Source: Streptacidiphilus anmyonensis
Lineage (GTDB): Bacteria; Actinomycetota; Actinomycetes; Streptomycetales; Streptomycetaceae
Assembly (NCBI RefSeq): GCF_000787855.1
Contig: NZ_BBPQ01000007.1
Span: 93,497 to 150,493 of the forward strand
DNA length: 56,997 nucleotides
Direction: 5' to 3'
Shown: piece after piece, positions 7,521 to 53,635 of the stretch
Position numbering within the stretch: the first letter of the stretch is position 1
Layout of the letters: each line of letters starts with the position of its first letter
Notes under the pieces: model-generated
What the model was told of the DNA's origin: nothing
The model's input: the letters and a program-made list of their open reading frames with translations, nothing else
The model's database searches: none
Translations under genes and position numbers: made by a program

Positions 7521-8384
7521 TCAGCGGGATTCGTGCCGCAGCGGGGTGACGACGGGGCAGCCCTGGGCGTCCCTGGTCACCGAGACCCGCGCGTCGTAGA
7601 CGCGGGCGATCACGTCCCGGGTGATGACGTCGCCCGGGGCGCCGCTCGCCTCGACGCGCCCCCGGTGCAGCAGGACGAGCTGGTCGGCGTACTGGGAGGC
7701 GGTGGTCAGGTCGTGGAGGGTGGTGACGACGGTCAGGCCCTGGGTGCGGCGCAGCCGGTCGACGAGGTCGAGGACGTGCTGCTGGTGTCCGAGGTCGAGG
7801 GCGGAGGTGGGCTCGTCCAGCAGCAGCAGGCGGGGCTCCTGGGCCAGGGCTCGGGCGATGGCGGCGCGCTGGCGCTCCCCGCCGGAGAGTCGGGCGAGGC
7901 GACGGTCGGCGTAGTGGGTGAGGTCGAGCTCGTCCAGGGTGCGCGCGGCGGTCCGGCGGTCCCGGTCGCCGGGGCTCGCGAGGTAGGACAGATGGGGCGT
8001 GCGGCCCAGCAGCACGTACTCGTGGACCGTCATGTCGGGCGGCAGCAGGGGCGTCTGGGGCACGTAGGCGATCAGGCGGGCCCGTTCCCTGGTGCGCAGG
8101 GCGCTCACGTCGGTGCCCTCGACCAGGACGGTGCCGCGGTGCGGGATCAGCCCGGCGACCGCCCGCAGCGCGGTCGACTTGCCGGCGCCGTTGGGGCCGA
8201 TCAGCGCCAGCCAGCCGCCCTGGGCGACGGTGCCGGACAGCTCCCGGACGACCGGGGTGCGGTCCAGGTCGACGTCCAGCCCGGCCAGCTCCAGTCCGTT
8301 CACCGCCGACACCGACACCGCCCCCGATCCCGATCCCGAGCCCGATCCCGACTCGGACGTCGGCGCGGCCCCGGGCGCGCTCAT
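7521..8384 (-). CDS. btuD: cobalamin ABC transporter ATP-binding protein
   Basis: 287 aa, FecE/BtuD type. Walker A GPNGAGKST, signature LSGGERQR, Walker B LLLLDEPTSALD and the H-loop LHD are all intact. The first ~30 residues include a Gly-Ser repeat that comes from a TCCCGA hexanucleotide run (8325-8355) and is probably a flexible, non-essential tail. The ATG overlaps the permease stop by four bases (ATGA), so the two are translationally coupled. It powers uptake through the neighbouring permease. Cobalamin rather than siderophore as substrate is inferred from the riboswitch upstream of the operon; without it the family alone would not decide. Confidence 0.9.
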   Translation of the reverse strand: MSAPGAAPTSESGSGSGSGSGAVSVSAVNGLELAGLDVDLDRTPVVRELSGTVAQGGWLALIGPNGAGKSTALRAVAGLIPHRGTVLVEGTDVSALRTRERARLIAYVPQTPLLPPDMTVHEYVLLGRTPHLSYLASPGDRDRRTAARTLDELDLTHYADRRLARLSGGERQRAAIARALAQEPRLLLLDEPTSALDLGHQQHVLDLVDRLRRTQGLTVVTTLHDLTTASQYADQLVLLHRGRVEASGAPGDVITRDVIARVYDARVSVTRDAQGCPVVTPLRHESR

Positions 8385-9472
8385 GTGCGCACCGCCCGGG
8401 TGGAGCGCAGGATCCAGACGAAGGCCGGGGAGCCGACGAGGGCGGTGACGACACCGATGGGCAGTTCGGCCGGGGCCACCACGGTCCGCGCCAGGGTGTC
8501 GGCGAGGACCAGGAATCCCGCGCCGAACAGCAGCGACAGCGGCAGAACGAGACGGTAGGAGGTGCCGGCCAGTCGTCGCACCGCGTGCGGGACGACGAGC
8601 CCGACGAAGCCGATCAGCCCGCTCACCGCGACCGCGCTCGCCGCGGCGAGCGCGCAGCCGGCCACGACCGCCAGCCTGATCCGGGCGGGACGCAGGCCCA
8701 GCGAGCGGGCCTCCTCGTCGCCCACCGACAGCACGTCGAGATGGCGGCCGTGCAGCAGCACGACGGCCGTGGAGACGGCCAGGTAGGGCAGGATCTGCAC
8801 ACTCTGGTGCCAGGTGGCGGCGGACAGCGAGCCCAGCAGCCACGAGTAGACCTGCTGGATGTCCTGGGTGGAGCGCTGGAGCACATAGGTCTGCACGGCG
8901 GTCAGGAACATCGAGACCGCGAGCCCCGCGAGCAGCAACGTCGACGTGCCGGGTCCGCCGCTCGCGCCGGCGAGGTAGGCGCAGGCCACCCCGGCCAGCG
9001 AGCCGACGAACGCGGCCACCGGCAGGGTCTGCGCGTTCACCCCGCCCATCGCGACGATGGCGAGGGTCGCGCCGAGGCCGGCCCCCGCCGACGCGCCCAG
9101 CAGCGAGGAGTCGACCAGCGGGTTGCGGAACACCCCCTGGTAGCCCGCGCCGGAGAGCGAGAGCGCCCCGCCCACCAGCGCCGCCAGGACCACGCGCGGC
9201 AGCCGGATCTGGAAGAGCACGGCCCGGTCCAGCGGGCTGAGCCCGCCGGGCAGGTGCACGAACGGCAGCCGGTCCAGCAGCGCGGCGGCCGTGGCGAGCG
9301 GATTGAGGTCCGCCGCCCCGGCCATGGCGCCCACCAGCACCGCGGCGACCAGGAAGGCCACCGCGAGGCCGTAGGCGCGCACCGTCCGCCGGCGGACGCG
9401 TCCGCGCCCGCCGGTCCCTTCCGCGGTGCCGTCCGCAGACGCCTCCGTGGTCCCTTCCACGGGCGCCTTCAC
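8381..9472 (-). CDS. btuC: cobalamin ABC transporter permease (FecCD/BtuC family)
   Basis: 363 aa with about nine to ten hydrophobic helices. Family motifs are present: RLPRVVLAALVGGALSLSGA, QGVFRNPL, LLGASAGAG and the late SGLIGFVGLVVPHAVR coupling-helix region. A polar, Arg-rich 30-residue N-terminus precedes the first helix. The gene sits between the binding protein (19-base gap) and the ATPase (4-base overlap) and forms the membrane channel of the same importer. The specific substrate is taken from the operon's cobalamin riboswitch. Confidence 0.92.
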   Translation of the reverse strand: MKAPVEGTTEASADGTAEGTGGRGRVRRRTVRAYGLAVAFLVAAVLVGAMAGAADLNPLATAAALLDRLPFVHLPGGLSPLDRAVLFQIRLPRVVLAALVGGALSLSGAGYQGVFRNPLVDSSLLGASAGAGLGATLAIVAMGGVNAQTLPVAAFVGSLAGVACAYLAGASGGPGTSTLLLAGLAVSMFLTAVQTYVLQRSTQDIQQVYSWLLGSLSAATWHQSVQILPYLAVSTAVVLLHGRHLDVLSVGDEEARSLGLRPARIRLAVVAGCALAAASAVAVSGLIGFVGLVVPHAVRRLAGTSYRLVLPLSLLFGAGFLVLADTLARTVVAPAELPIGVVTALVGSPAFVWILRSTRAVRT

Positions 9473-9491
9473 GGGCGCCGCCCGGCCGGGG

Positions 9492-10472
9492 TCACTTGGT
9501 CGGGGCCTTCTCGACCGCCTGCGCGATCTCGGCGACCAGCTGCGGCAGACGCGGGCCCCAGCGGGAGGCGATGTCGTCGTCCAGGCCGACGACCTGATCC
9601 TTCTTCACCGCCGGGATCCCGGACCAGCCCGGCCGGGCCGCGACGACCGCGGGGGTCTGGCCGCCGTCGGAGGCTCCGTTGTCCGTGAGGAAGATCAGCT
9701 GCGGCTGCGCGGAGACGACGTACTCGGCGGACAGCTGCGGGTACCCGCCGTCGGACGCCTTGTCCGCCTTGTCGGCGATGTTCTTCAGGCCGAACAGGGA
9801 GACGACCTGTCCGACGAAGGTCTTGGAGGTCGCCGAGTAGTACGGGTTGGCGCTCAGCTCCCAGTAGTAGCCGAGGTCCGCGTGCGCGGCGCCGACCTGC
9901 TTGACGGTGGCGGCGATCTGCGACTTCATGCCGGCCACGGTCGCGGTGGCCTCGGTGGCGTGGCCGGTGGCCTGGCCGATCTGCTCGATCTGGGCGTAGG
10001 CGTCGTCCAGCGTCGCCGCGGCGGGCTCGATCATGACCGGAACGCCCAGCTTCTGCAGACCGGCGACCAGGCCGCCGGAGTCCTGCGAGGCGACGACCAG
10101 GTCCGGGCTGTACTTGACGATCGCCTCGACGTTCGGCGTCAGGCCGCTGAGGCTGGTGACCGGAGCGCCCTTCGGGTAGTCCGACGTCGAGTCGACGGCC
10201 ACGACCTGCTTGCCCGCGCCCACGGCGTACAGGTCCTCGGTCGCGGTCGGCGACAGCGAGACGATGTGCTGCGGCCGGGCCTTGACGGTGACTTTGCCGT
10301 TCGACGGGGTCACCGTGACCGGGAACGAGGCGGCCGCGGCCGAGGAGGCCGACGTCGAGGCGGACGGGGCGGCGGAGCCTGAACCCGAGGAGCTGCAGCC
10401 GGAGACGGCGGCCAGGGCGGCGAGCGCCGCGGCCGCCGTCGCAACAGAGCGGACCAGCCGTCGCTGAGCCAT
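9492..10472 (-). CDS. btuF: cobalamin-binding lipoprotein of the ABC importer
   Basis: 326 aa. The ATG at 10472 has GGAAG six bases upstream and starts a lipoprotein signal (MAQRRLVRS, hydrophobic core, lipobox A-V-S-G-C); longer readings enter the 5' leader. An Ala/Ser linker follows the Cys, then the bilobed class III binding-protein fold (PQHIVSLSPTATEDLYAVGAG, DLVVASQDSGGLVAGLQKLG, and a central backbone helix). It captures the ligand outside the membrane and passes it to BtuC. First gene of the btuF-btuC-btuD unit, directly behind a cobalamin riboswitch, which is the reason for naming the ligand. Confidence 0.9.
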   Translation of the reverse strand: MAQRRLVRSVATAAAALAALAAVSGCSSSGSGSAAPSASTSASSAAAASFPVTVTPSNGKVTVKARPQHIVSLSPTATEDLYAVGAGKQVVAVDSTSDYPKGAPVTSLSGLTPNVEAIVKYSPDLVVASQDSGGLVAGLQKLGVPVMIEPAAATLDDAYAQIEQIGQATGHATEATATVAGMKSQIAATVKQVGAAHADLGYYWELSANPYYSATSKTFVGQVVSLFGLKNIADKADKASDGGYPQLSAEYVVSAQPQLIFLTDNGASDGGQTPAVVAARPGWSGIPAVKKDQVVGLDDDIASRWGPRLPQLVAEIAQAVEKAPTK

Positions 10473-20700: not shown

Positions 20701-21024
20701 TCACCGACCCGTTCGGGCCAGGAACACCTCGTCCACGTAGCACCACCCCCAGCTCTCGCCCTTCTTCAGGGTGCGGGCGAGCGGGTGCCCGGTGCGCTCC
20801 GCGTGCTCGTGCGCGTGCCGGCCCGGCGAGCTGTCACAGCACCCCACCTCCCCGCACACCAGGCACGCGAGGAGGTTGACCCACGTGTCCCCCCTCCGCA
20901 GGCACGCCTCGCACCGGGCGGGCTGTGCCGCCGGCGCGCGGGCCGGCGCGAGGTGGTCGCAGGTTCGGGTGCGCGCCGCACCCGGCGGCTGTTCGACGTG
21001 CCACTCTTCGTCCGCCTCGCTCAC
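20701..21024 (-). CDS. UBP-type zinc-finger protein
   Basis: 107 aa. The Cys/His pattern of the ZnF-UBP fold is present: TCDHL, CEACLRRGDTWVNLLACLVCGEVGCCDSS, GRHAHEHAERTGH (shown in pieces; the first block is residues ~38-66). Bacterial stand-alone members of this family are small cytosolic proteins of unknown role, frequent in actinomycetes. It is downstream of and co-oriented with the ABC-SpoIIE fusion (62-base gap) and could share its transcript. Confidence 0.88.
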   Translation of the reverse strand: MSEADEEWHVEQPPGAARTRTCDHLAPARAPAAQPARCEACLRRGDTWVNLLACLVCGEVGCCDSSPGRHAHEHAERTGHPLARTLKKGESWGWCYVDEVFLARTGR

Positions 21025-21086: not shown

Positions 21087-22928
21087 TCAGGGCAGTCGCT
21101 GCTCCGCCCAGATGATCTTTCCGCGGTCGGTGTAGCGGGTGCCCCAGCGCTCCGACAGGTGGGCCACCAGGAACAGGCCGCGCCCGCCCTCGTCCGTGGT
21201 CGCCGCGTAGCGGACGTGCGGCGAGGTGCTGCTGGCGTCGGCGACCTCGCAGACCAGGGACCGGGTGCGGAGCATCCGGACCGTGATCGGGCCGCTCGCG
21301 TAGCGGATGGCGTTGGTGATCAGCTCACTGAGGATCAGTTCGGTGGTGAACGCCAGGTCGTCGAGGTCCCAGCGGTGCAGCTGCCGCGTCGCCGCGGCGC
21401 GGACCTCGGCGACCGCGGCCGGGTCGCCCGGGACGTCGAAGGCGGCCACGTGGCCCTTGGGGAGCCCTCGGGCGCGTGCCACCAGCAGGGCGACGTCGTC
21501 GGGCGTCTCGCCGGCCCCCGCGTCGGGCAGCAGGGCCGAGACCAGGGCGTCGCACAGGCGGCCGGGCGGCAGGTCCTCGTTCTGACGCACCGCCTGGAGC
21601 AGCCGGTCCAATCCCTGGTCGATGTCGTGGTCCCGCCGTTCGACCAGCCCGTCGGTGTAGAGCAGGAACCGGGCGCCGTCGGGCAGCGGCAGCTCGACGG
21701 TCTCGAACGGCATCCCGCCGAGGCCGAGCGGGGGACCGGCCGGAACCTCGGCGAACGCGGCCCGGCCGTCCGGCTGGACCAGCAGCGGCGGCAGGTGGCC
21801 GGCCCGGGCCACCTCCAACTGCCGGTCCACCGGGTCGTAGACGGCGTAGACGCAGGTCGCGCCGATGATGTCGCTGTGGCCGCCGGCGGCCCCGCGCTCC
21901 TCGTCGAGGCGGCTGACCAGGTCGTCCAGGTGCGCCAGCAACTCGCCCGGCGGCAGGTTGAGATGGGAGACGTTGTGGACGGCGGTGCGCAGCCGTCCCA
22001 TGGTCGCGGCGGCGCTGAGGCCGTGGCCGACCACGTCCCCGACGACCAGGGCGACCCGCGCGCCGGACAGGGGGATGACGTCGAACCAGTCCCCGCCCGC
22101 GCCGGCCTGCGCGGGGAGGTACCGGAACGCGGTGTCGAGCGTCTCGAGCCTCGGCAGGTCCCGTGGCAGCAGGCTGCGTTGCAGCGCGGCGGCGAGGATC
22201 TGATTGCCGCTCACCGCCGACACGATCTGTTCCTGGCTGGCGTAACGCGTCTCGAAGACGCCGGCGTTGCGGCCGAGCCGCAGCACGGCGACGCGGTCGG
22301 CGACCTCCACCACGTCGTCGATGTTGTGGCTGACCAGGACGATCCCCAGTCCGCTGTGACGCAGACGGCGCACCAGGTCGAGCAGGAGGGCACTCTGCTC
22401 GGGGGCCAGCCCGGCCGTGGGCTCGTCCAGCAGCAGCAGAGCCGGATCGTCGATCAGCGCCCCGGCGATGGCGACCGACTGGCGCTCGGCGGCGGTCAGG
22501 GCCGCCAGCGGGGTGCCGAGGTCGGCGATCGGCACGCGCAGGCGGTTCAGCAGTCCGCGTGCCCGCTGCTCCATGCCGATCTCGTCCAGCATCCCGAAGC
22601 GCCGCAACTCCCGCCCCAGGAACAGCTGGGAGGTCACGTCGAGGTTGAGGCACAGCTGCGGTTCCTGGTGCACCGCGGCCACGCCGAGCCGCCGGATCGC
22701 GCGCGGTCCGCGCAGGTCCACCGGCCGACCGTGCCACCGGGCGACGCCGCTGTCCGGCGCCTCGACCCCGGCCATCACCCGGATCAGGGTGGACTTGCCG
22801 GCGCCGCTCTCGCCGGCGACGGCGACGACTTCGCCCGCGTGCACGTCGAGGTCGACGTCGACGAGCGCGCGCACGGCTCCGAAGCGCTTGGAGACGCCTC
22901 GCAGGGACAGCAGCGGTGGTTCGGCCAT
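21087..22928 (-). CDS. fusion of CUT2-type ABC ATPase, SpoIIE phosphatase and HATPase domain
   Basis: 613 aa from ATG 22928. Residues 1-240 are a complete ABC ATPase of the RbsA kind: Walker A GESGAGKS (39-46), Q-loop VHQEP (86-90), CUT2-type signature LTAAERQSVAIA, Walker B LLLLDEPT (164-171), H-loop SHN (His201). Residues ~250-455 are a SpoIIE/PP2C phosphatase with GGDWFDV (Asp280), VVGDVVGHG and the late DDVALLVAR. Residues ~480-610 are an RsbW-like ATP-binding domain (ELITNAIRYA, GGRGLFLV). The second ABC half of RbsA is replaced by the signalling module. No permease or binding protein is adjacent. It probably acts in anti-sigma signalling, with ATP or transport state as input; that is inference. 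Confidence 0.9.
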   Translation of the reverse strand: MAEPPLLSLRGVSKRFGAVRALVDVDLDVHAGEVVAVAGESGAGKSTLIRVMAGVEAPDSGVARWHGRPVDLRGPRAIRRLGVAAVHQEPQLCLNLDVTSQLFLGRELRRFGMLDEIGMEQRARGLLNRLRVPIADLGTPLAALTAAERQSVAIAGALIDDPALLLLDEPTAGLAPEQSALLLDLVRRLRHSGLGIVLVSHNIDDVVEVADRVAVLRLGRNAGVFETRYASQEQIVSAVSGNQILAAALQRSLLPRDLPRLETLDTAFRYLPAQAGAGGDWFDVIPLSGARVALVVGDVVGHGLSAAATMGRLRTAVHNVSHLNLPPGELLAHLDDLVSRLDEERGAAGGHSDIIGATCVYAVYDPVDRQLEVARAGHLPPLLVQPDGRAAFAEVPAGPPLGLGGMPFETVELPLPDGARFLLYTDGLVERRDHDIDQGLDRLLQAVRQNEDLPPGRLCDALVSALLPDAGAGETPDDVALLVARARGLPKGHVAAFDVPGDPAAVAEVRAAATRQLHRWDLDDLAFTTELILSELITNAIRYASGPITVRMLRTRSLVCEVADASSTSPHVRYAATTDEGGRGLFLVAHLSERWGTRYTDRGKIIWAEQRLP

Positions 22929-23132
22929 GCGGTGCGAAGTCCTCTCCCGGTGCGGATCCCTCCAGTCTCCCGCGAAACGCCCCTCCCGCCGATACCCCCG
23001 TGCGGGGCCTGTCCACACGCGGGCTAGGCCGAACGGACCCTCGGCCGACGGCGTGCGGATCGGGGTCGCCCTAGACTCGGGGTGATCAGACCCGGGGTGA
23101 TCCCGCGTGAGCTCTGCTGCCAGGAGGTCCGG

Positions 23133-23816
23133 ATGATCCGGCACACCCGACTCGCCACCGAATCCCCGGAGTACCTCGCCGCCCGGGAGGAGCTCCGCCA
23201 GGCCGAGATCGACCTGATGCGCCACCGGGAGCGGGTGGCGGCCCAGCGCCGCGCACTCCCGCAGGGGCCGCCGGTCGACGACTACGCCTTCCTCGAGGGG
23301 CCCGCCGACCTGGACGCGGGCGACACCCCGGTGCGCCAGGTCCGGCTGAGCGAGCTGTTCACCGCCCCGGACCGGCCGCTGATCGTCTACCACCTCATGT
23401 ACGGCAAGAAGCAGACCGACCCGTGCCCGATGTGCACGCTGTGGATCGACGGGTTCAACGGCGTGGCCCGCCACATCACCCAGAACGCCGACTTCGCCGT
23501 CGCCGCGGCCGCCGACCCGGCGGCGTTGCGCGAGCACGCGCGCAACCGCGGCTGGGACCGGCTGCGGCTGCTGAGCTGCGGCGACAGCAGCTTCAAGTAC
23601 GACCTCGGCAGCGAGAGCGAGGACGGCGTCCAGGACTCCACCGTCTCGGTCTTCACCCGGGACGCCGACGGGACCGTCCGGCACTTCTACTCCGCCCACC
23701 CGCGGATGGCCGAGGACATCGACCAGCGCGGCATCGACCTGCTCGCCCCCGTCTGGCACCTCCTCGACCTCACCCCGGGCGGGCGCGCGGACTGGTTCGC
23801 CGCACTGGACTACTGA
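23133..23816 (+). CDS. DUF899 thioredoxin-fold protein
   Basis: 227 aa from ATG 23133 with AGGAGGT seven bases upstream. The family's hallmarks are present: early EYLAAREELRQAEIDLMRH helix, VRLSELF, LIVYHLMYG, CPMCTLWIDGFNG (CxxC-like pair) and SVFTRD near the C-terminus. DUF899 proteins are thioredoxin-like and of unconfirmed function. Divergent from the ABC-SpoIIE fusion and convergent with the DksA-like gene. Confidence 0.9.
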   Translation: MIRHTRLATESPEYLAAREELRQAEIDLMRHRERVAAQRRALPQGPPVDDYAFLEGPADLDAGDTPVRQVRLSELFTAPDRPLIVYHLMYGKKQTDPCPMCTLWIDGFNGVARHITQNADFAVAAAADPAALREHARNRGWDRLRLLSCGDSSFKYDLGSESEDGVQDSTVSVFTRDADGTVRHFYSAHPRMAEDIDQRGIDLLAPVWHLLDLTPGGRADWFAALDY

Positions 23817-23845: not shown

Positions 23846-24217
23846 TCACCGCCGAGGGGCGGCCTCGGCGCAGGCCACACAGCGGGTGGCGGCGGGGCGG
23901 ACCGCCAGGCGCTCGGCGGGGATGGGCGAGTGGCAGACCTCGCAGCGACCGTAGGCACCGCCGTCCAGGCGCTTCATCGCGTTCTCCAGCTCTTCCAGCT
24001 CCTGGCGGCCCTGAGCGAGCAGGGCGGCGACGTGCGCGCGCTCGAACGCGGTGCTGGACCCCTCCGGGTCGTGTTCGTCGTCCACGGCGACCAGGGCGTT
24101 CGCCTCGACGACCGTCCGGTACTCGCGCTCCAGGGCGGCGATCCGGGCACGGACCTCGGCCTGCTGGGAGACCAGCAGGTCACGGGCCTGGTGGTGGTCG
24201 GAGGACCGGTGCGACAT
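23846..24217 (-). CDS. DksA/TraR-type C4 zinc-finger protein
   Basis: 123 aa. A long helical N-terminal half (about residues 10-85, charged and Ala-rich) is followed by a C4 zinc finger (GRCEVC and TRCVAC, preceded by GGAYG), the classic DksA/TraR arrangement. Family members bind the RNA polymerase secondary channel; many actinobacterial versions, including this one, lack a clear acidic tip motif, so activity on polymerase is not certain. It lies downstream of the amidohydrolase on the same strand with a 133-base gap. Confidence 0.9.
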   Translation of the reverse strand: MSHRSSDHHQARDLLVSQQAEVRARIAALEREYRTVVEANALVAVDDEHDPEGSSTAFERAHVAALLAQGRQELEELENAMKRLDGGAYGRCEVCHSPIPAERLAVRPAATRCVACAEAAPRR

Positions 24218-27118: not shown

Positions 27119-28969
27119 TCAGCCGAGCGCCCGGTCGAGGTTGAAGGCAGCGCTGATCAGCGAGAGGTGGGTGAACGCCTGGGGGAAGTTGCCGAGTTGC
27201 TCGCCGGTCGGGCCGATCTCCTCGGCGAACAGGCCGAGGTGGTTGGCGTAGGTGAGCATCTTCTCGAAGGCGAGCCGGGCCTCCTCCAGCCGACCCGCGC
27301 GGGTCAGGGCCTCCACGTACCAGAAGGAGCAGATGGAGAAGGTGCCCTCCGGGCCGTGCAGACCGTCCGGGCTGGCCGTCGGGTCGTAGCGGTAGACCAG
27401 CGAGTCGGAGACCAGATCGGCGCTGAGCGCGTCCAGGGTGGAGATCCACTTCGGGTCGGTGGGGGCGATGAACTTCGACAGCGGCATCATCAGGAGGGAG
27501 GCGTCCAGCTCGCCGTCGTCCAGCGACTGGACGAACGCCTGGCGCTCGGCCGACCAGCCGCGCTGCATGATCTGCCGGTAGATCGCGTCGCGGGACTGCC
27601 GCCACAGCGGCAGGTCGGCCGGCAGGCCGCGCCGGTTCGCCATCCGGATGGCCCGCTCCAGCGCCACCCAGCACATCACCCGCGAGTACACGAAGTTGCG
27701 GCGGCCCGCGCGGGTCTCCCAGATGCCCTCGTCGGGCTGGTCCCAGTGGCCGCAGAGCCAGTCCGCGACCGCGCCGATCTGGTCCCAGTCGGCGCTGCTG
27801 ATGGGCCGCCCCCACTTGTCGTAGAGGTAGATCGAGTCGATCAGCGCGCCGTAGATGTCCAGCTGGAGCTGCCCGGTGGCGGCGTTGCCGACCCGGACCG
27901 GCGCGGAGCCGAGGTGGCCTTCCAGGTGCGGCAGCTGGAACTCGGGCAGTTCGCTGCGCCCGTCGATGCCGTACATGATCTGCAGGGGCCCGGTGGCGGC
28001 GCTGCCGCTCCTCATGCGTTCGCAGAGGAACTCGATGAACGCCTCGGCCTCCGAGGTGAACCCGAGCCGCAGCAGCGCGTAGACGCAGAACGCGGCGTCG
28101 CGGACCCACACGTACCGGTAGTCCCAGTTGCGCTCGCCGCCGAGCTGCTCGGGGAGGCTGGTGGTGGGGGCGGCGACGATCGCGCCGGTCGGCGCGTAGG
28201 TGAGCAGCTTCAGCACGAGAGCGGAGCGGTGCACCATCTCCCGCCACCGGCCGTGGTAGCGGGAGCCCGACAGCCAGTGGCGCCAGAACCGGACCGTCGC
28301 CTCGGCCTCCGCCTGGGCCTCCTCGCGCGGACACGACCGGGTCGGGACGCCGTCGGTGATGTGGTCGAGCGCGAACACGTGGGACTCGCCCTCGAGGAGC
28401 TTGAACCGCGACCACACGTCCGTCCCGTCGCACTCCAGCGGTGCGGTGGCCGTCAGCGCGAGGGTCAGCGAGGGGGAGCGGAACACCGCGACACGGCTTT
28501 CGAGCTCGGCGGTGTGCTTCTCCGCGCCGTACCCGAAGCGCGGGGCGATCCGTGCCCGGAAGGGGAGGGTCCCGCGGACGCAGAGCACCCGCCGGATCAG
28601 CCGGTGCCTCGCGCCCTCGGCCGCGCCGGCCGTTCCGGCGGACCCGTCGGCCACGGGCATGAAGTCCTGGATCTCCGCCACCCCGTCGGCCGAGAAGAAC
28701 CGCGTGATCAGCACGTTCGTGTCGGGGAAGTAGAACTGCCGGGTGCGTGTCGCGACGTCGGCGGCCAACTGGAACGAACCGCCCCGGTCGGCGTCGAGGA
28801 TGGACCCGAACACGCTGGGCGCGTCGAAGCGCGGACAGCAGTACCAGTCGATGGTGCCGTCCGTGCCGACCAGCGCGGCCGTCCGGAGATCGCCGATCAG
28901 GCCGTGCTCGGCGATCGGCATGTAGCGACAGTCGTCCACCGGCTCGAAGCCGGTCGTGTCGAACGCCAT
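27119..28969 (-). CDS. GH15 glycosidase (glucoamylase/trehalase-like), copy 1
   Basis: 616 aa from ATG 28969 with GGGAGG six bases upstream. The N-terminal beta-sandwich starts with IAEHGLIGDLRTAALVGTDG; the (alpha/alpha)6 barrel carries RNWDYRYVWVRDAA, the acid region QPDEGIWETR and the base region FAEEIGPTG with GNFPQAFTHL, the standard GH15 pattern. No signal peptide, so cytosolic. Actinobacterial enzymes of this type are trehalases or glucoamylases that release glucose. A second copy lies at 35167-36996. Convergent with the Lrp gene. Confidence 0.93.
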   Translation of the reverse strand: MAFDTTGFEPVDDCRYMPIAEHGLIGDLRTAALVGTDGTIDWYCCPRFDAPSVFGSILDADRGGSFQLAADVATRTRQFYFPDTNVLITRFFSADGVAEIQDFMPVADGSAGTAGAAEGARHRLIRRVLCVRGTLPFRARIAPRFGYGAEKHTAELESRVAVFRSPSLTLALTATAPLECDGTDVWSRFKLLEGESHVFALDHITDGVPTRSCPREEAQAEAEATVRFWRHWLSGSRYHGRWREMVHRSALVLKLLTYAPTGAIVAAPTTSLPEQLGGERNWDYRYVWVRDAAFCVYALLRLGFTSEAEAFIEFLCERMRSGSAATGPLQIMYGIDGRSELPEFQLPHLEGHLGSAPVRVGNAATGQLQLDIYGALIDSIYLYDKWGRPISSADWDQIGAVADWLCGHWDQPDEGIWETRAGRRNFVYSRVMCWVALERAIRMANRRGLPADLPLWRQSRDAIYRQIMQRGWSAERQAFVQSLDDGELDASLLMMPLSKFIAPTDPKWISTLDALSADLVSDSLVYRYDPTASPDGLHGPEGTFSICSFWYVEALTRAGRLEEARLAFEKMLTYANHLGLFAEEIGPTGEQLGNFPQAFTHLSLISAAFNLDRALG

Positions 28970-29074
28970 CTCGGCCTCCCTGCCGCTGCGGCGCCGGTGC
29001 GGGGATGAAGCCTGGCCTTCCATGCTAGTCCGGACCGGATCTTGCAGCGCTGCGGGCCGCGTCGGCCGACGGGA

Positions 29075-35166: not shown

Positions 35167-36996
35167 ATGCTTGATCTCGATCCGCCGTTCCGGCCGGTCC
35201 GGCAGCAGGACGGCTACCTCCCCCTGGAGGACCTCGGGCTCATCGGGGACGGCAGCACGGCGGCCCTGGTCGGGCTGGACGGCTCCATCCCCTGGATGTG
35301 CCTGCCCCGCTTCGGCTCCGACCCGCTCTTCTGCGGCCTGCTCGACCACGCCCGGGGCGGGCACTTCACCGTCGCGCCGATCGACCTGGTCGAGGCCCGG
35401 CAGCGCTACGAGCCCGACACCGGCGTCCTGGTGACGGAGATGCGCAGCCCCACCGGCGTGGTCCGGGTCACCGACGCGCTGGCGCTGCGCTCCGGCGCCG
35501 ACCTGACCGACGACGCGCCCCAGAGCCGGGGCGAGCTGGTGCGTTCCGCGGTCGTGCTGGACGGCGAGGTCCGGCTGCGGGTCGACCTGGAGCCGCGCGG
35601 CGGCGCGCTGGCCCGGGCGCTGTTCAGCGGGCTGGAGGTGCAGGTGCCCCGGCGGCCGGACCTCCAACTGCACCTGCGCTGCAACCGGCCGCTGGAGTCC
35701 CTGCACAGCAGCCACGCACTGCGCGCGGGCGAGCGACTCGACCTGGTCCTGTCCTGGGGGCGCTTCCACCGCCACCACCGGTTCGACGCGCAGGCGATGC
35801 TGCACGAGACCGCGGCGGCCTGGCGGCGCTGGATGACCGGCTTCGACTACCAGGGGCCGCAGGAGCCGCTGGTGCGCCGCTCCGCCATCACGCTCAAGCT
35901 GTGCGACGACTGGGCCAACGGCTCGCTGGTCGCGGCCCCGACCTCCTCGCTGCCCGCGCCCGTCGGCGGGGTGCGCAACTGGGACTACCGCTACACCTGG
36001 ATCCGCGACGCCGCCTACGCGGTCTTCGCCATGCGCCGCATCGGCTTCGCGGGGGAGGCCGACGCCTTTCTCGGCTGGGTGCTCGACGCCTTCGAACGCA
36101 GCGGCCGGCCCCGCATCATGTACGACCTCGACGGCCGTCTGGTGCCCGACGAGGTCGAGGACGCCGAACTGGAGGGCTACCGGCGCTCGGCCCCCGTGCG
36201 CTGGGGCAACGGCGCGGCCGACCAGCGCCAGCACGACGTCTACGGCGAGGTGCTGGACTGCGCCGACCAGTGGCTGCGCGCCGGCGGCCGTCTGGAGCCC
36301 GCCCTGTGGGCCGGTCTGGCCGGCCTCGCGGACGCCGCCGAGAAGGCGTGGATCCAGCCCGACCAGGGCATCTGGGAGGTCCGCAGCGAGGGCCGGGTGT
36401 TCACGTACTCGGCCGGGATGTGCCAGGTGGCCCTGGACCGGGCGGCCCTGATCGGCGAGCGGCTCGGGCGCACCGAGCGGACCGCGGCCTGGCGGGCCGC
36501 GGCCGAGAGGCTTCGCGAGCGGATCCTCACGGAGTCCTGGGACGAGGACGCCCAGACCCTCAGCGAGCACCTGGACGGCGGCGGCGCGCTCGACGCCAGC
36601 CTGCTGGCGCTCCCGCTGCGCATGGTCGTCCCGGCCGACCACCCGCGCATGGTGGCGACGACAGCCGCCATCGCCGACCGTCTCTCCGCGGGCGACGGCC
36701 TGGTCTACCGCTACCTGCACGACCATTCGCCGGACGGCCTGCCCGGCGACGAGGGCGCGTTCGTCCTGTGCAGCTTCTGGCTCGTCGACAACCTGATCGG
36801 CCAGGGCCGTCTCGACGAGGCCGGGCAGCTGTACGCGTCGCTGTGCGGCCGGGCGAGCCCGTTGGGGCTGCTGCCGGAGCAGATCGACCCCGTGACGGGA
36901 GCGTTCATGGGCAACTTCCCCCAGGCGTTCAGCCACATCGGGATCATCGCCAGCGGAGTGAACCTCAGCCGGGCGACCCTGGCGAGGCCGAAGTGA
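35167..36996 (+). CDS. GH15 glycosidase (glucoamylase/trehalase-like), copy 2
   Basis: 609 aa. Same architecture as the copy at 27119-28969: N-terminal LEDLGLIGDGSTAALVGLDG, barrel motif RNWDYRYTWIRDAA, acid segment QPDQGIWEVR, base segment LLPEQIDP followed by GNFPQAFSHI. It is clearly diverged from copy 1, particularly in the N-terminal domain. No signal peptide. Its TGA overlaps the GTG of the next gene (GTGA), so its product and the glucose-6-phosphate dehydrogenase are made together, consistent with feeding released glucose into the pentose phosphate route after phosphorylation. Trehalase versus glucoamylase activity is not decided. Confidence 0.92.
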   Translation: MLDLDPPFRPVRQQDGYLPLEDLGLIGDGSTAALVGLDGSIPWMCLPRFGSDPLFCGLLDHARGGHFTVAPIDLVEARQRYEPDTGVLVTEMRSPTGVVRVTDALALRSGADLTDDAPQSRGELVRSAVVLDGEVRLRVDLEPRGGALARALFSGLEVQVPRRPDLQLHLRCNRPLESLHSSHALRAGERLDLVLSWGRFHRHHRFDAQAMLHETAAAWRRWMTGFDYQGPQEPLVRRSAITLKLCDDWANGSLVAAPTSSLPAPVGGVRNWDYRYTWIRDAAYAVFAMRRIGFAGEADAFLGWVLDAFERSGRPRIMYDLDGRLVPDEVEDAELEGYRRSAPVRWGNGAADQRQHDVYGEVLDCADQWLRAGGRLEPALWAGLAGLADAAEKAWIQPDQGIWEVRSEGRVFTYSAGMCQVALDRAALIGERLGRTERTAAWRAAAERLRERILTESWDEDAQTLSEHLDGGGALDASLLALPLRMVVPADHPRMVATTAAIADRLSAGDGLVYRYLHDHSPDGLPGDEGAFVLCSFWLVDNLIGQGRLDEAGQLYASLCGRASPLGLLPEQIDPVTGAFMGNFPQAFSHIGIIASGVNLSRATLARPK

Positions 36997-46663: not shown

Positions 46664-48313
46664 TCAGCCGCGGCTGAGGACCGAGGTCAGCACCTCGGTC
46701 AGGACCTGGACGGGTCGGTCCGACGCGCCGGCGGCGCGCCAGGCGACGAAGCCGTCCGGGCGTACCAGGACCGCGCCGTCGTCGTTCACTCCGTGGGCCT
46801 GGGCCCAGCCCGACTCGGCGTCCGGGGCGAGGGCCGGCCCCTGCCCGGACCCGGCGTCGACCGGAAGGCAGTTCAGGGGCAGGCCGAGTGCCTGCGCCAC
46901 CTGCTGGCCCGCCTCGTGCCAGGACGCGCCGGCCGGGCCGGTCAGCAGCACCGGGCCGCGCTCGTACAGGTCCAGGGTCGACATGCGCGTCCCGTCGGCC
47001 ACCAGCCACAGGTGCGGGGCGCGGCTACCCGGTTCGCCGCTCGCGCGGAACTGCTCGGGCACGGCGCCGGCGTCGGAGCCGTCGGACGTGTCGGACGCGA
47101 CGCCGTGGACCGCGCTGGAGCGGTAGCGGTAGCCCAGCACCACGGCCAGCATGCCTGCCTGACGTCCCGTTCCGGGACTGACGTCGTATCCGGGGTGGCG
47201 GTGCTCCGCCGAGCGGGCCGAGGCGCGCGCCGCCGTCGCCAGGGCGACGGGGCGTCGTTCGGCGTCGTAGGTCTCCAGCAGCCCGGGGCCGGCCCAGCCC
47301 TGCAGCACCGCCGCGAGCTTCCAGGCCAGGTTGTGGGCGTCCTGGATGCCGGTGTTGGAGCCGAACGCGCCGGTGGGGGACATCTCGTGGGCCGAGTCGC
47401 CAGCGAGGAAGACCCGCCCGCTGCCGTAGCGGTCCGCCACCCGTTCGGCGGCGTGCCAGGGCGCCTTTCCGGTGATCTCGACCTCCAGATCGGGCACGCC
47501 CGTCGCGGCGCGGATCAGCGCCGTGCAGCGCTCGTCGGTGAAGTCCTCCAGGGTCTCGCCGCTGTCGGGCCGCCAGGGGGCGTGGAACACCCACGCCTCC
47601 TTGTTGTCGACCGGCAGCAGCGCGCCCGAGCCCTCGGGATTCCTCAGGTAGCAGACGATGAAGCGGCGGTCTCCGACCGCGTCGGCCAGGCGTTTGGCGC
47701 GGAAGGTGATGCTGACGTTGTGGAACAGGTCGCCCTTGCCGCTGTGGCCGATGCCCAGCCGCTCCCGGATCGGGCTGTGCGGCCCGTCGGCCGCGACGAG
47801 GTACTGCGCCCGGACGGTCCTGGTCCGGCCGGTCGCGCGTTCCTTGACGACGGCGGTCACCCCGTCCCCGTCCTGCTCGAACGACTCGAGCTCGGCGCCG
47901 AAGCGGATGTCGGCGCCGAGCTCCCGGGTGGCGGCCAGCAGTACCGGCTCCAGGTCGTTCTGGGAGCACAGGCACCAGCCGGCCGGGCTGAGCCGGGAGA
48001 GGCCGCCGCCGGGGTCGATCTGGCGGAACAGCCACTCCTGCTCGGCGCCGGTGAGCGTGTCGGCCTGGAGGATGCCGTGGTTCTCCGCGAGCACCGAGGC
48101 GGCCTCGTGGATGCGCTGCTCGACTCCGGCGGTGCGGAACAGCTCCATCGTCCGTACGTTGTTGCCGCGTCCGCGCGGATGCTGCGAGGTGCCCGCGTGG
48201 CGTTCCACCAGGAGGTGCGGGACGCCGAGGCGGCCGAGGAACAGCGAGGTGGACAGCCCCACGAGGGAGCCTCCGGAGATCAGCACGGGGACGTGGTCAT
48301 CGACCTTGGTCAT
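46664..48313 (-). CDS. FAD-dependent aromatic hydroxylase (WhiE ORFVIII-like)
   Basis: 549 aa, ATG 48313. Class A flavin monooxygenase: N-terminal VLISGGSLVGLSTSLFLGRL (FAD phosphate motif), the DG motif in VAADGPHSPIRERLG, and the GD motif in VFLAGDSAHEMSPTGAFG. The C-terminal ~150 residues form the thioredoxin-like domain common to polyketide ring hydroxylases. It is divergent from the SchA/CurD-cupin-KS operon, the same arrangement as whiE ORFVIII next to whiE ORFI-VII in S. coelicolor. Predicted role: hydroxylation of the polyphenolic spore-pigment core. Confidence 0.92.
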   Translation of the reverse strand: MTKVDDHVPVLISGGSLVGLSTSLFLGRLGVPHLLVERHAGTSQHPRGRGNNVRTMELFRTAGVEQRIHEAASVLAENHGILQADTLTGAEQEWLFRQIDPGGGLSRLSPAGWCLCSQNDLEPVLLAATRELGADIRFGAELESFEQDGDGVTAVVKERATGRTRTVRAQYLVAADGPHSPIRERLGIGHSGKGDLFHNVSITFRAKRLADAVGDRRFIVCYLRNPEGSGALLPVDNKEAWVFHAPWRPDSGETLEDFTDERCTALIRAATGVPDLEVEITGKAPWHAAERVADRYGSGRVFLAGDSAHEMSPTGAFGSNTGIQDAHNLAWKLAAVLQGWAGPGLLETYDAERRPVALATAARASARSAEHRHPGYDVSPGTGRQAGMLAVVLGYRYRSSAVHGVASDTSDGSDAGAVPEQFRASGEPGSRAPHLWLVADGTRMSTLDLYERGPVLLTGPAGASWHEAGQQVAQALGLPLNCLPVDAGSGQGPALAPDAESGWAQAHGVNDDGAVLVRPDGFVAWRAAGASDRPVQVLTEVLTSVLSRG

Positions 48314-48642
48314 GGGGAATGGGCTCCGAGTTCGGCGAGGAGGCGGTGCGGGCACGGCGCACCGCGGTGCGGTCGCACGGCGGGGTGGGAGGCCCTTCGC
48401 GCGCCTGAACTGCATGTGTCCCCGGCGGCCGTGGCGTTGACCGGTTCTTCACTCGGTTGACGTACACAGCGCGCAGCCTCGGCGGACGTGTCGAAGGATC
48501 GAGTACGTAGCACCGATTCTCGGCATATGCCGACGATCCCCGTCGCGGGCGTGGACGCCCCGACCGCGTGCCCCCTGGCGGCGCCACCCGTTCCCCAGCG
48601 AGAACGGGGCACGGACGCCGCGGGCGAGAGGAAGCAACGACT
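48314..48642. promoter_or_regulatory. divergent promoter region of the polyketide locus
   Basis: 329 bp between the FAD hydroxylase and the SchA/CurD-containing operon; no gene supported. It contains the 14-bp perfect palindrome TCGGCATATGCCGA (48520-48533) and two TTGAC-containing direct repeats 20 bp apart (GTTGAC at 48436-48441 and 48456-48461), matching half of the 46045-46061 dyad. In S. coelicolor this position holds the developmental whiE promoters; no sigma-F-type box could be identified with confidence here. Confidence 0.6.
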
Positions 48643-49845
48643 GTGGTGACCACGGACGACACCAAGAACCCCATGCCCACCTCGGCGGACGGCCACCTTC
48701 GGGTGGTGCTCCTGCTGGACGTCCACGAGGGCCAGGAACAGCGTTTCCTGGCGGCCTACGACCAGATACGCCATCAGGTGGCGAGCGTGCCCGGACACAT
48801 CAGCGACCAGCTGTGCCAGTCCCTGGGCAACTCCTCCCAATGGCTCATCACCAGTGAGTGGGAGAGCGCCGAGCCCTTCCTGAGCTGGGTGGACAGCGAC
48901 GCCCACCGCGCGCTGGTCGAGCCGCTGCACAACTGCGTGACCGACACCCGCTCGCTGCGGTTCGTCATCGCCCGGCAGACCCCGGAGACCGGCTTCGGGC
49001 ACGGCCGGGGCCCCTCCGAGCGTGCCGCCCGCGCCGCGCGTGCCGCGGCCGGCGTGACGCCGGGCCGGCCGGTGACCGGACGTCCCGCGCGCAGCACCGA
49101 CCCGCTGCCGGCCCCGCCGCTGGCGAGCGGCGGCCTGGTGCGCCACGCGATCGCGTTCACGGTGAAGCCGGGCAGCGAGGAGCGGGTGGCGGAGATCCTG
49201 TCGGGCTACGAGTCGCCCAGGGCGCAGGTCGACGAGACGACGCGGCTGTGCCGCACCTCGCTGTTCATGCGCGGCAACCAGGTGGTGCGGGCCGTCGAGG
49301 TCAAGGGAGACCTGGGCAACGCCCTGCGGCACGTGGCCATGCAGCCGGAGGTCCGGCGTGTCGAGGAGGCCATCAACCCGTATCTGGAGGAGGCCCGCGA
49401 CCTGGCCGACCCCACCTCTGCCCGCGCCTTCTTCGCCCACGCGGCCCTGCCCGCCGTGCGGCACGCCGCCGACGGCCGGCCCGCCGACGGCGGCGAGGTC
49501 ACCCGGCACGCGTTCCTCTACCCGGTCAGACGCGGCCATGCGGTGGACGCGGCACGGCTGTTGGGGGAGCACGACGTCAAGGCCGCGGCCGCGGCCGGCA
49601 GTCCGCTGGCGCAGAGCACCATGTTCGCGCGCGACGACCTGCTGATGCGCATGGTCGACCTGCGCCGGCCGTACCAGGAGGTCCCCGGGCACGCCGCGGG
49701 CCTCGACTCCGGGACGGTGGAGCAGCTCCGCCTCCACCTGGACTTCGGCGATCCGACGTTCGCCGCCGACGAGCCCGCGCTGGCGCGGTTCCTGGCCGGG
49801 TGCGCGATGCGCCCGATCACCGACCGCGTCTCCGCCTCGTCCTGA
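48643..49845 (+). CDS. ABM-SchA/CurD-like protein (WhiE ORFI-like)
   Basis: 400 aa, GTG 48643 with AGAGGAAG eight bases upstream (GTG 48646 also possible). Residues ~15-110 form an ABM-type dimeric barrel ([37 protein letters not shown]). After an Ala-Arg-rich linker, two SchA/CurD-like segments follow ([20 protein letters not shown] and [20 protein letters not shown]), each starting with a His-rich strand. The SchA/CurD family is found only in spore-pigment-type type II PKS loci (WhiE ORFI, SchA, CurD); its reaction is not established. First gene of the operon. Confidence 0.88.
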
Positions 49846-49857
49846 GCACCGTCCTTT

Positions 49858-49876
49858 CGTACGAACCGTTCGTACG
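49858..49876. promoter_or_regulatory. 19-bp perfect palindrome inside the polyketide operon
   Basis: CGTACGAAC-C-GTTCGTACG lies between the SchA/CurD-like gene and the cupin gene, 19 bases before the cupin ATG. It is a textbook TetR-type operator shape, or an RNA hairpin that could modulate the downstream ribosome site (GGGAGAGAG). It may mark an internal regulated promoter. Confidence 0.6.
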
Positions 49877-49895
49877 CACAGTTCGGGAGAGAGTC

Positions 49896-50318
49896 ATGAC
49901 CACTCAACCCACCCGTATCGTCAGCCTCGGTGACGTCCCACCCAACCGACGCCGCGGCGGCGACCTGCGCGCCATGCTCACCCCCACCACGGTCGGGGCG
50001 ACCAGCGGATTCATGGGCCTCGCGCTGATCGAGCCCGGCGAGCGCATCGGCGAGCACTACCACCCGTACTCCGAGGAGTTCGTGTTCGTCGTGGCCGGGG
50101 AGCTCGAGGTGGACCTGGACGGCGAGGCGCACCCGCTCCGTCCCGAGCAGGGGCTGCTGATCCCGCGTGACATGCGGCACCGCTTCCGCAACGTCGGCGC
50201 CGCGCAGGCCCGGATGGTGTTCCACCTGGGTCCGCTCGCGCCGCGCCCGGAGCTCGGGCACGTCGACACCGAGGACGGGCAGGAACCGTCCGCCGACGCG
50301 CGGGCGGCGAGCATATGA
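49896..50318 (+). CDS. cupin-domain protein (WhiE ORFII-like)
   Basis: 140 aa. One cupin barrel: [22 protein letters not shown] gives motif 1 (GE-x-HYHP-x3-E-x-VFVVAG; shown in part), and [15 protein letters not shown] gives motif 2 with a terminal His. Metal ligands His, His, Glu, His are all present. Small cupins of this group are often spore-pigment cluster proteins; a folding, cyclase or oxygenase role is proposed but unproven. The TGA overlaps the ATG of KS-alpha (ATGA), so translation is coupled. Confidence 0.92.
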
Positions 50319-51583
50319 CGCGCCGCGTGGCGGTGACGGGACTGGGCGTGGTCGCCCCCGGCGGCGTCGGCGTCCCGGCCTTCTGGGACCTGCTGACCGC
50401 CGGGCGCACCGCGACCCGGGGGATCTCCCTCTTCGACGCGGCGGCGTTCCGCTCCCGGATCGCGGCCGAGTGCGACTTCGAGCCGCTGGCCGGCGGCCTC
50501 GACCCCGAGACGGCGGCGCGCACCGACCGGTACGTGCAGTTCGCGCTCGTCGCGGCGGCCGAGGCGCTGCGGGACTCCGGGCTCGACACCTCCCGGCTGG
50601 ACGGCTGGCGGATGGGCGTGTCGCTGGGGTCGGCCGTGGGCGGGACCACCCGGCTCGAACACGACTACGTCGCCGTCAGCGAGCACGGCGCCCGCTGGGA
50701 CGTGGAACCCGGCGCTTCGGGGCCGCACCTGCACCGGGCCTTCTCGCCCAGCACGCTCGGCTCCGAGGTCGCCGAGTTCGTGGGGGCCCACGGGCCGGTG
50801 CAGACGGTCTCGACCGGCTGCACCTCGGGCCTGGACGCCGTCGGACACGCCTTCGCGAGCATCGTCGAGGGCAAGGCCGACATCGTCGTGGCCGGTGCGT
50901 CGGAGTCGCCGATCTCCCCGATCACCGTGGCGTGCTTCGACGCCATCAAGGCGACCTCGACGCGCAACGACGACCCGGCCCACGCCTCCCGGCCTTTCGA
51001 CGCGGAACGCGACGGCTTCGTGCTCGGCGAGGGCGCGGCGGTGCTGCTCCTTGAGGAGCGCGAGCACGCCCTGGCCCGCGGGGCGCGGATCTACTGCGAG
51101 ATCAGCGGATTCGCGACCTTCGGCAACGCGTACCACATGACCGGGCTGACCGCCGAGGGCCGGGAGATGTCCGAGGCCATCGACCGGGCGCTGGAGCAGG
51201 CCCGGGTCTCGCCGGGCGAGGTGGACTACGTCAACGCCCACGGCTCGGGCACGCGGCAGAACGACCGGCACGAGACGGCGGCGGTCAAACGCTCACTGGG
51301 GGAGCACGCCTACGCGGTGCCGATGAGCTCCATCAAGTCGATGGTCGGCCACTCGCTGGGCGCCATCGGCGCGATCGAGCTGGCCGCCTGCGCCCTGGCC
51401 ATCGCCCACGGCGTGGTGCCGCCGACCGCCAACTACGAGACCCCCGACCCCGAGTGCGACCTGGACTACGTGCCGCGCACGGCCCGGCAGCAGCGCCTGC
51501 GCAACGTGCTGTCCGTCGGCAGCGGGTTCGGCGGCTTCCAGTCCGCGGTCGTGCTCACCCATCCCGACCGGAGGCTGCCATGA
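50315..51583 (+). CDS. type II PKS ketosynthase alpha
   Basis: 422 aa. Catalytic Cys169 in [13 protein letters not shown], His309 in NAHGSGT, Lys341 and His346 in [10 protein letters not shown], and the GEGAA gatekeeper region are intact. It condenses malonyl-ACP extender units together with the KS-beta encoded immediately downstream (4-base ATGA overlap). The neighbourhood (cupin before, ACP and cyclases after) matches whiE ORFIII. Product: a long-chain aromatic polyketide, most likely the polyphenolic spore pigment. Confidence 0.97.
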
Positions 51584-52833
51584 GACGCAGCAGCGACACG
51601 CCGCCGCGGGCCGTGATCACCGGCGCGGGCGTCATCGCGCCCAACGGCAGCGGCTGCGACGGCTTCTGGAAGGCCGTGCTGCAGGGGACCGTCGCGCTGG
51701 ACCGGGTCAGCCGCGAGGGCTGCACCCATCTGCCGCTGCGCGTCGCCGGCGAGGTCCGGGGCTTCGAACCCGAACCGCTGGTCGAGAGCCGCTTCCTGGT
51801 GCAGACCGACCGGTTCACGCACTTCGCCATGGCCGCCGCGGACCTCGCCCTCGAGGACGCCCGGCTCACCGGGGACCCGCAGGCGCCCTTCACCATCGGC
51901 GTGACCACCGCCGCAGGCTCCGGCGGCGGCGAGTTCGGCCAGCGTGAACTCCAGGAACTGTGGGGAAACGGGCCGCACTTCGTCGGCCCCTACCAGTCCA
52001 TCGCGTGGTTCTACGCCGCCAGCACCGGCCAGATCTCGATCCGCGGCGGCTTCCGCGGACCCTGCGGCGTGCTGGCCAACGACGAGGCCGGCGGGCTGGA
52101 CGTGTTCGCCCACGCCCGCCGCGCCCTCGGGCACGGCACCAGAGCCGTGGTGACCGGCGCGACCGAGGCCCCGCTCGCCCCCTACTCGATGGTCTGCCAG
52201 CTCGGCTACCCCGAGCTCAGCCTCGCCGAGGACCCGCATCGGGCGTACCTCCCCTTCACGGAACACGCCTGCGGCTTCTCGCCCGCCGAGGGCGGCGCCA
52301 TGTTCGTGGTGGAGGACGAGGACTGGGCCCGCCGACGCGACGCCCGCATCCGCGCCCAGGTCGTCGGCCACGCCTCGACGTTCACCGGCACGCGGTCCTG
52401 GGAGCACTCGCGGCAGGGGCTGGCCAGGGCCATCCAAGGCGCCCTGGACGACGCCGGCTGCGACCCGGAGGAGGTGGACGTGGTCTTCGCGGACGCCCTC
52501 GGCGTCCCGGCCGCCGACCAGGCCGAAGCGCTCGCCATCAGCGACGCGCTGGGGGTGCGGGCCGCCGACGTCCCGGTGACCGCCCCCAAGGCCGGGTTCG
52601 GCCGCGCGTTCTCGGCCGCCTCGGCCCTCGACGTCGCCGCGGCGGTCTTCGCCCTGGAGCACGGCGCGGTGCCGCCCACCCCCAACGTCGCGGAGGTCCG
52701 CGTCGACCTCGACGTGGTCACCGGCCACGCCCGCAGCGTGCCGCTGCGGACGGCGCTGGTGCTCAGCCGCGGCCTGATGGGCTGCAACTCGGCGCTGGTG
52801 CTGCGCCGCGCGGACGACGGCGGCCACTCCTGA
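51580..52833 (+). CDS. type II PKS ketosynthase beta (chain-length factor)
   Basis: 417 aa. KS fold but the nucleophile is replaced: the segment aligned with the KS-alpha STGCTSGLD reads [10 protein letters not shown], so there is no active Cys. The residue that is usually Gln in chain-length factors (Q-A-G-G-L-D) is Glu169. The rest of the CLF signature is intact ([35 protein letters not shown]). It pairs with KS-alpha and sets the chain length. The Gln-to-Glu change is unusual; its effect on priming or decarboxylation is unknown. Confidence 0.95.
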
Positions 52834-52873
52834 CCGCCTCGTGCCGCTCCCGACCCGAACGAAGGAGAACCCC

Positions 52874-53618
<745 letters not shown>

Positions 53619-53635
53619 GAGGGAGGAACCCCCTG

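Follow-up and report, generated by a model that had tools for sequence, protein, structure and literature searches.

The window analysed here is a 56,997-nucleotide stretch of Streptacidiphilus anmyonensis DNA, part of contig C147 in a 9.39 Mb draft genome of 153 contigs (G000). Its minus strand carries an open reading frame of 613 codons plus a stop, which starts at an ATG at 22928, ends with the stop at 21087 and encodes three domains in one chain. In the translated protein, Pfam recognised ABC_tran at residues 24–172 (E 4.9e-24), SpoIIE at residues 289–486 (E 2.1e-58; 197.9 bits against a cut-off of 25) and HATPase_c_2 at residues 500–607 (E 1.1e-14; 55.0 bits against a cut-off of 27.4). 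These matches, together with the full-length homologues described below, bear out the preliminary description of the gene, which had read it from the letters alone as a one-chain fusion of an ABC ATPase, a SpoIIE phosphatase and an RsbW-like HATPase. The NCBIfam models that ranked highest over the nucleotide-binding domain (NBD) were YtfR, XylG, AraG and RbsA, each matched through its first half and with scores far under the cut-offs. The chain stops after the HATPase, and Pfam found no fused STAS domain.

Two other gene models were rejected. A plus-strand protein at 21087–22928 is incompatible with the domain matches, every one of which comes from the minus-strand reading. A longer chain, read from an in-frame open reading frame that begins at 23849, would overlap the DUF899 gene on the opposite strand; five same-genus homologues with an ATG at the aligned position also disfavour the longer start. 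The fusion and its neighbours are listed in Table 1 with parts of a type II polyketide synthase-like set that occupies 46664–55779 of the window. Elsewhere in the window lie a FecCD-type importer set at 7521–10313 (ABC ATPase, FecCD permease and Peripla_BP_2), which is of the siderophore type and not CUT2, and a GH15/trehalase-like protein at 27119–29023, with a gene of similar-looking start within 10 kb (35167–36996).

Table 1 Features of the fusion gene and of the surrounding window
Feature	Position in window	Strand	Basis or remark
Whole fusion gene (ABC NBD, SpoIIE/PP2C, HATPase)	21087..22928	−	613 aa + stop; homologues
CUT2-like nucleotide-binding domain, residues 1–242	22203..22928	−	Pfam, NCBIfam, motif alignment
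Join, residues 226–262 (NBD C terminus into phosphatase N-terminal helix)	22143..22253	−	dN/dS, AlphaFold
SpoIIE-type PP2C phosphatase domain, Pfam match 289–486	21471..22064	−	Pfam, motifs
RsbW-like HATPase_c_2 domain, Pfam match 500–607	21108..21431	−	Pfam, motifs
zf-UBP protein	20701–21024	same as fusion	adjoins fusion
DUF899 gene	23082–23816	opposite to fusion	adjoins fusion
DksA/TraR-type zinc-finger protein	23846–24217		near fusion
FAD aromatic hydroxylase	46664–48313		polyketide synthase-like set
Two ketosynthase-type proteins	50315–51583, 51613–52833		polyketide synthase-like set
Acetyl-CoA carboxylase carboxyltransferase-like protein	54025–55779		polyketide synthase-like set

The fusion is present in 6 of 14 same-genus genomes including its own, at 84–88% identity; the match in one of them stops at residue 599, where the contig ends. 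When 121 genomes were sampled across the family, 35 had it, spread over 3 of 17 genera: the window's genus (g1) and two others, g6 and g14. Identity outside the window's genus was 60–66% in this draw. One of its 36 matching rows was partial: this relative (G105:C14:6616–7950) aligned over residues 2–448 only, lies inside a long open frame and may be a variant or a broken copy. In a draw of 147 genomes from the order, the fusion turned up in 1 of 131 g9 genomes (G183, 59% identity) as well as in the window's own genome, and a 149-genome draw of the phylum found it in the own genome only, under a strict E-value limit. Each draw scored part of the candidates per genome (92 in the same-genus draw, 10 in the family, 8 in the order and 8 in the phylum) at E-value limits of 1e-160, 1e-165, 1e-130 and 1e-90, respectively, so absences from the draws are not proof. 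Among the best 80 of at least 590 loci, three contained the fusion (Streptomyces fildesensis, Actinacidiphila cocklensis and A. epipremni) and the other 77 were right-half matches or little beyond. A plasmid-borne element was considered and rejected, as none of 248 matched plasmid records contained 80% of the fusion query.

We compared dN/dS among six same-genus genes (15 pairs; one gene truncated at a contig end). The mean was 0.28 for the NBD, 0.08 for the join (residues 226–262), 0.17 for SpoIIE and 0.27 for the HATPase, which places the strongest purifying selection of the four parts on the join. Full-length conservation and purifying selection that includes the join rule out an assembly error or a frameshift and argue strongly against a chimera. 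The fusion is an intact, selected, lineage-restricted gene.

Each part has close relatives in the same genome. Residues 245–613 are 69% identical to a paralogue at C129:48497, whose N terminus consists of Cache and GAF domains, plus a PAS match under the cut-off, where the fusion has its NBD; this supports the earlier suggestion that the NBD was captured as an input domain. The NBD itself is 57% and 55% identical to two free single-NBD ATPases, which adjoin a BPD_transp_2 permease and a Peripla_BP_4 protein (on contigs C152 and C122), and 53–58% identical to free single-NBD ATPases in relatives. We take these free CUT2 ATPases to be of the FrcA type. They end in ITG, by eye the register in which the fused chain enters the first helix of the phosphatase. 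It appears that a complete single-NBD ATPase was set in the former sensor position. The preliminary description had the phosphatase standing in place of a second ATPase half. Because the nearest free relatives are themselves short single-NBD proteins, no such half need have been lost, and we rejected a derivation from RbsA minus its second half.

The 33 distinct fused NBDs (identical sequences collapsed) formed one group against 26 free NBDs, with support of 100/97 (FastTree 0.984); the free set came from the loci fetched, mostly best matches to the fused NBD, and is not a random sample. The SpoIIE–HATPase halves needed two changes in the full 143-row tree and formed one group, with support of 67, in a 68-row tree, thinned by dropping twelve long-branch rows and roughly two in three of the other free rows. 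Of the 36 family-draw rows, the partial G105 row and three others are absent from the alignments; G089 and G050 are included as L142 and L143. The grouping of the fused NBDs makes a single origin of the fusion likely, not proven.

The window copy has Walker A (GESGAGKST, 39–47), Walker B (LLLLDEP from 164, with D168 and E169) and H201 where the preliminary description had placed them, and Q88 between the two Walker motifs. The CUT2 signature that it also listed could not be upheld: residues 144–148 read LTAAE, against LSGGQ in free relatives. Across the 33 distinct fused NBDs, K45, Q88, D168 and E169 are conserved without exception. LSGGQ is intact in nine, which are the nine g14 rows, and every scored ATPase motif is intact in all nine g14 members examined. 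The 17 g6 rows read LSGAQ, LSAAQ, LSGEQ or LPGAQ, the g9 row reads LTLGQ and the six rows of the window's genus read LTAAE. His201 is absent from six of the 33, all from g6 (Pro in five, Asp in one), which amounts to three changes on the tree. Free NBDs have LSGGQ in 25 of 26 cases and the H-loop histidine in all 26; the lone exception, LSIAD, is a distant row and probably a two-NBD protein. Hydrolysis motifs are thereby changed in 24 of the 33 fused NBDs, which tells against the earlier proposal that ATP hydrolysis is wired to partner switching. Judged by these motifs, the predicted nucleotide-binding residues are kept across fused NBDs and the predicted turnover residues are eroded.

With the identity between free families as the baseline, the g1 NBDs have diverged most at 144–200 (identity 0.55 and 0.51, compared with 0.90 and 0.91 between the free families) and also at 116–143 and 39–85; segment 201–222 is better kept than the rest. 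The helical segment 116–143 shows above-average divergence in all three genera compared. Segment 86–115, which holds the Q-loop and is the likely permease contact, has a g1 identity to free NBDs of 0.61, against 0.56 for the whole NBD.

The phosphatase domain of the window copy has intact GGDWFD, GDVVGHG, TDG and DD motifs, in agreement with the intact metal motifs reported earlier. The Pfam match and the metal-ligand aspartates, whose roles are given in a passage of PMC3517971 and whose residues were mapped here by motif, place it in the SpoIIE/RsbU-type PP2C class, with predicted phosphatase activity. TNG replaces TDG in 3 of 33 aligned fusion rows (30 distinct proteins, a set slightly different from that of the 33 distinct NBDs), all from g14 (L116, L123 and L127), and this change may impair the phosphatase halves of these three. 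The HATPase retains an N-box (ELITN) and GGRGL and has D-A-S at 564–566, of which we take the RsbW counterpart to be D-x-G; E535 and N539 are invariant in the alignment behind one of the structure models (A3). The HATPase_c_2 match and the N-box put the domain in the RsbW/SpoIIAB-like class, and sigma-factor binding or STAS phosphorylation is predicted for it.

AlphaFold prediction of the monomer, suggested in the preliminary description, was informative for one half of the chain. Two models, for which we used a first alignment with distant NBD rows (A1) and alignment A3 with four NBD rows, had mean pLDDT values of 71.3 and 63.7; in a trial alignment of the same kind as A1 (A2), distant NBD rows were visibly misplaced. 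The PP2C and HATPase half was largely confident. The NBD was poorly modelled, with pLDDT below 50 for residues 1–242 in the 63.7 model and mixed values in the 71.3 model, so its geometry is unproven. In both models, a helix at 232–253 spans the join with low-to-moderate confidence. The top fold matches were 3ke6 (the RsbU–RsbW part of Rv1364c), RssB and SpoIIE, and ABC ATPases such as 4u00 and 3gfo ranked lower. In sequence comparisons with the PDB, the right-half profile (364 positions) matched 3ke6 alone at E ≤ 1e-5, and the best matches of the whole chain were ABC transporters, over the NBD.

The gene had been noted to lack a permease or solute-binding protein beside it, and profile matches agree: there is no BPD_transp_2 permease and no Peripla_BP_4 protein in the window. 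The contig as a whole has no BPD_transp_2 match and a single Peripla_BP_4 match outside the window. Measured against a CUT2 importer ATPase, the protein has the CUT2-like ABC_tran domain, without an intact LSGGQ and without a permease or binding protein at the locus. Fourteen BPD_transp_2 matches are found in the own genome, all of them no more than 2.7 kb from an ABC ATPase (by hand-copied coordinates in a draft of 153 contigs), and hence no orphan permease. This weakens the earlier suggestion that the NBD pairs with a distant sugar permease, in whose favour stands the Q-loop segment, no more diverged than the NBD as a whole. Used as queries, the 14 permeases had no relative at E ≤ 1e-3 in 23 loci homologous to the fusion or in the window, and each recovered other permease loci. 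A strong Peripla_BP_4 binding protein (180 bits) was observed at G000:C138:72065–72841, on a contig with no BPD_transp_2 match.

Gene neighbours at the 23 loci were taken from a crude codon-composition gene caller, and some were annotated. Mapping them yielded a recurrent SpoIIE gene. Gene order differs from genus to genus. Three g6 loci have in common an ABC ATPase and a protein of about 800 residues, two to three genes upstream; the upstream ABC set of L022 is an FtsX-type pair, not CUT2. The immediate neighbour is another SpoIIE-type phosphatase gene in 12 of the 23 loci, compared with about 0.2 expected, an expectation that uses 36 hand-listed PP2C places and treats related loci as independent, so that a binomial P is not meaningful. 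Of the nine g14 loci, six have the PP2C gene upstream in the same orientation, separated from the fusion by −4 to 100 nt; in L138 and L140 it encodes GAF-PAS-GAF-SpoIIE without a HATPase. Three g6 loci have a related phosphatase downstream on the same strand at 282–382 nt; that of L146 is again GAF-PAS-GAF-SpoIIE without a HATPase. Same-strand SpoIIE neighbours were found at L135, L137, L138, L140, L142, L143, L021, L146 and L147, and the neighbouring PP2C gene is on the opposite strand at L131, L136 and L139. L142 (g14) has PP2C genes both upstream and downstream, the downstream copy being on the opposite strand and sharing 55% identity with the g6 protein across some 820 residues. The window gene and 4 of the 5 other same-genus loci have no adjacent PP2C gene. 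The neighbours of the window gene offered no partner; the best candidate from other loci is the GAF-PAS-GAF phosphatase, whose nearest match in the own genome (48% over 211–733 of 738) is on another contig. At one same-genus locus, the next gene downstream (L130:10864–12195) runs opposite to the fusion and encodes a Ser/Thr protein kinase.

We propose, with slightly better than even confidence, that the fusion is a soluble partner-switching regulator of the RsbU–RsbW type, in which a CUT2-like NBD has replaced the usual N-terminal sensor and serves as a nucleotide-driven dimer switch. ABC NBDs dimerise around ATP. Two chains would bind ATP and their NBDs would close as an ATP-sandwich dimer; because the NBD C terminus runs directly into the phosphatase N-terminal helix, closure would draw the switch helices of the phosphatase together and, by analogy with RsbU and SpoIIE, turn it on. 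As in other members of these families, the phosphatase would dephosphorylate a STAS anti-anti-sigma protein, and the HATPase would phosphorylate the STAS protein or hold a sigma factor. The input would be ATP binding and not transport. The hydrolysis step is probably weakened in most fused members, as their motifs suggest, in which case the NBD would report nucleotide state or answer to a partner that drives the dimer open or shut. That the ABC NBD is a cytosolic input, with an attenuated-hydrolysis closure that clamps the PP2C helices and an ATP state or partner that sets sigma partner switching, we put forward tentatively, at somewhat short of an even chance.

Precedents exist for control of this kind. 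In passages of PMC12143880, coiled-coil formation by its linkers activates RsbU and sensors act through linker-mediated dimerisation, and the authors propose there that the RsbU plan accepts PAS, GAF, receiver and HAMP inputs interchangeably. A passage of PMC5468089 describes activation of SpoIIE by dimerisation, with switch helices that rotate as the dimer forms. Together with these precedents, a dimer switch is favoured by the Cache/GAF paralogue, with its sensor where the fusion has the NBD; by the retention of binding residues in 33 of 33 fused NBDs beside an eroded signature and H-loop; and by the probable single origin of the fused NBDs and a join that has a low dN/dS and is helical in both models. 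The place of 3ke6 as the nearest structure, the lack of an orphan permease and the frequent PP2C neighbour also argue for it. Several points run the other way. Hydrolysis may matter in g14, in which all motifs are kept, and the LTAAE signature could weaken the ATP sandwich in the window copy. Segment 86–115 is not preferentially eroded, a point in favour of docking on a permease, and the PP2C neighbour is missing at the window gene and most same-genus loci. The two changes in the tree of the right halves, an NBD dN/dS above that of SpoIIE and the unconfident NBD model also count against a switch.

Permease docking is the main rival. The fused NBD would dock on a CUT2 permease, for example in the C152 or C122 system, where it would replace or pair with the normal ATPase, and sugar transport would set phosphatase activity. 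The closest free NBDs of the own genome do adjoin a BPD_transp_2 permease and a Peripla_BP_4 protein, the contact segment is kept at least as well as the NBD average and the nine g14 members have every scored ATPase motif. Against this stand the window's lack of both protein families, the ATPase found near each of the 14 permeases, the absence of relatives of these permeases from the 23 homologous loci, the altered hydrolysis motifs of 24 of 33 members and the above-average divergence of segment 116–143 in all three genera, and we regard docking as unlikely.

The second rival, which we consider rather improbable, makes the NBD a structural or dead domain that dimerises constitutively, whether it holds nucleotide all the time or never, and assigns the real input to the GAF-PAS-GAF phosphatase or another partner. 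It would account for the erosion of the signature and H-loop, for the higher dN/dS of the NBD than of SpoIIE and for the GAF-PAS-GAF-SpoIIE genes that adjoin the fusion in several loci. The invariance of the Walker A lysine, the Q-loop and the Walker B Asp and Glu speaks against it, as does a dN/dS that is still well under 1. Very improbable, in our judgement, is an ordinary chimera with no special role, whether a recent accidental fusion or an annotation artefact; a patchy distribution with no gene order common to the genera could be read in this way, but full-length conservation in three genera and in a single genome of a fourth opposes it, as does the strong constraint on the join.

If the fusion is an ATP-gated dimer switch, then an importer ATPase has been reused to control a phosphatase, which takes the ABC domain beyond transport, and ABC NBDs would join PAS, GAF, receiver and HAMP domains among the exchangeable sensors of this PP2C class. 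Natural members of the family come both with and without hydrolysis motifs, so existing sequences allow binding to be tested against hydrolysis as the driver.

Literature titles and abstracts (open-licence PMC papers) yielded no account of an ABC–SpoIIE fusion, in keeping with the preliminary description, which knew of no characterised protein of this order, and the main text of a 2025 survey of bacterial PP2C proteins (PMC12088040) does not contain the word ABC. The closest comparisons are with systems that share one part or another of the chain. Streptomycete sensor–SpoIIE–HATPase_c_2 proteins, such as the C129:48497 paralogue with its 69% identical right half, have the same order after the sensor and differ in their input, which in that paralogue is Cache and GAF (with PAS under the cut-off) and here is an ABC NBD. 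Single-NBD CUT2 ATPases have the same ITG C-terminal end at the point where the fusion begins; they are free-standing, with an intact LSGGQ and His, whereas the NBD of the fusion is joined to a phosphatase and partly eroded. In Bacillus subtilis RsbU and SpoIIE, linker or switch helices likewise carry the control that an N-terminal domain exerts on the PP2C domain; there is no NBD in them and, to our knowledge, no fused HATPase. OsaC of Streptomyces coelicolor, as passages of PMC12143880 and PMC10117811 describe it, is a phosphatase of the stress response that combines sensor domains with a sigma-B-binding kinase domain; unlike in the fusion, the kinase domain is N-terminal and the sensors are PAS and GAF, in accounts of its domains that are inconsistent between these passages. 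Rv1364c of Mycobacterium tuberculosis (PAS, PP2C, RsbW-like kinase, STAS) comes nearest in layout, as there, too, the PP2C domain is followed directly by an RsbW-like HATPase. The fusion keeps the order of sensor, PP2C and HATPase with an unusual input domain, an ABC NBD in place of PAS, and is without the C-terminal anti-anti-sigma domain that passages of PMC12143880 and PMC9138534 give for Rv1364c. By these comparisons, the right half is of a known kind, shared with Rv1364c and many streptomycete proteins, and it is the ABC NBD as input that appears new.
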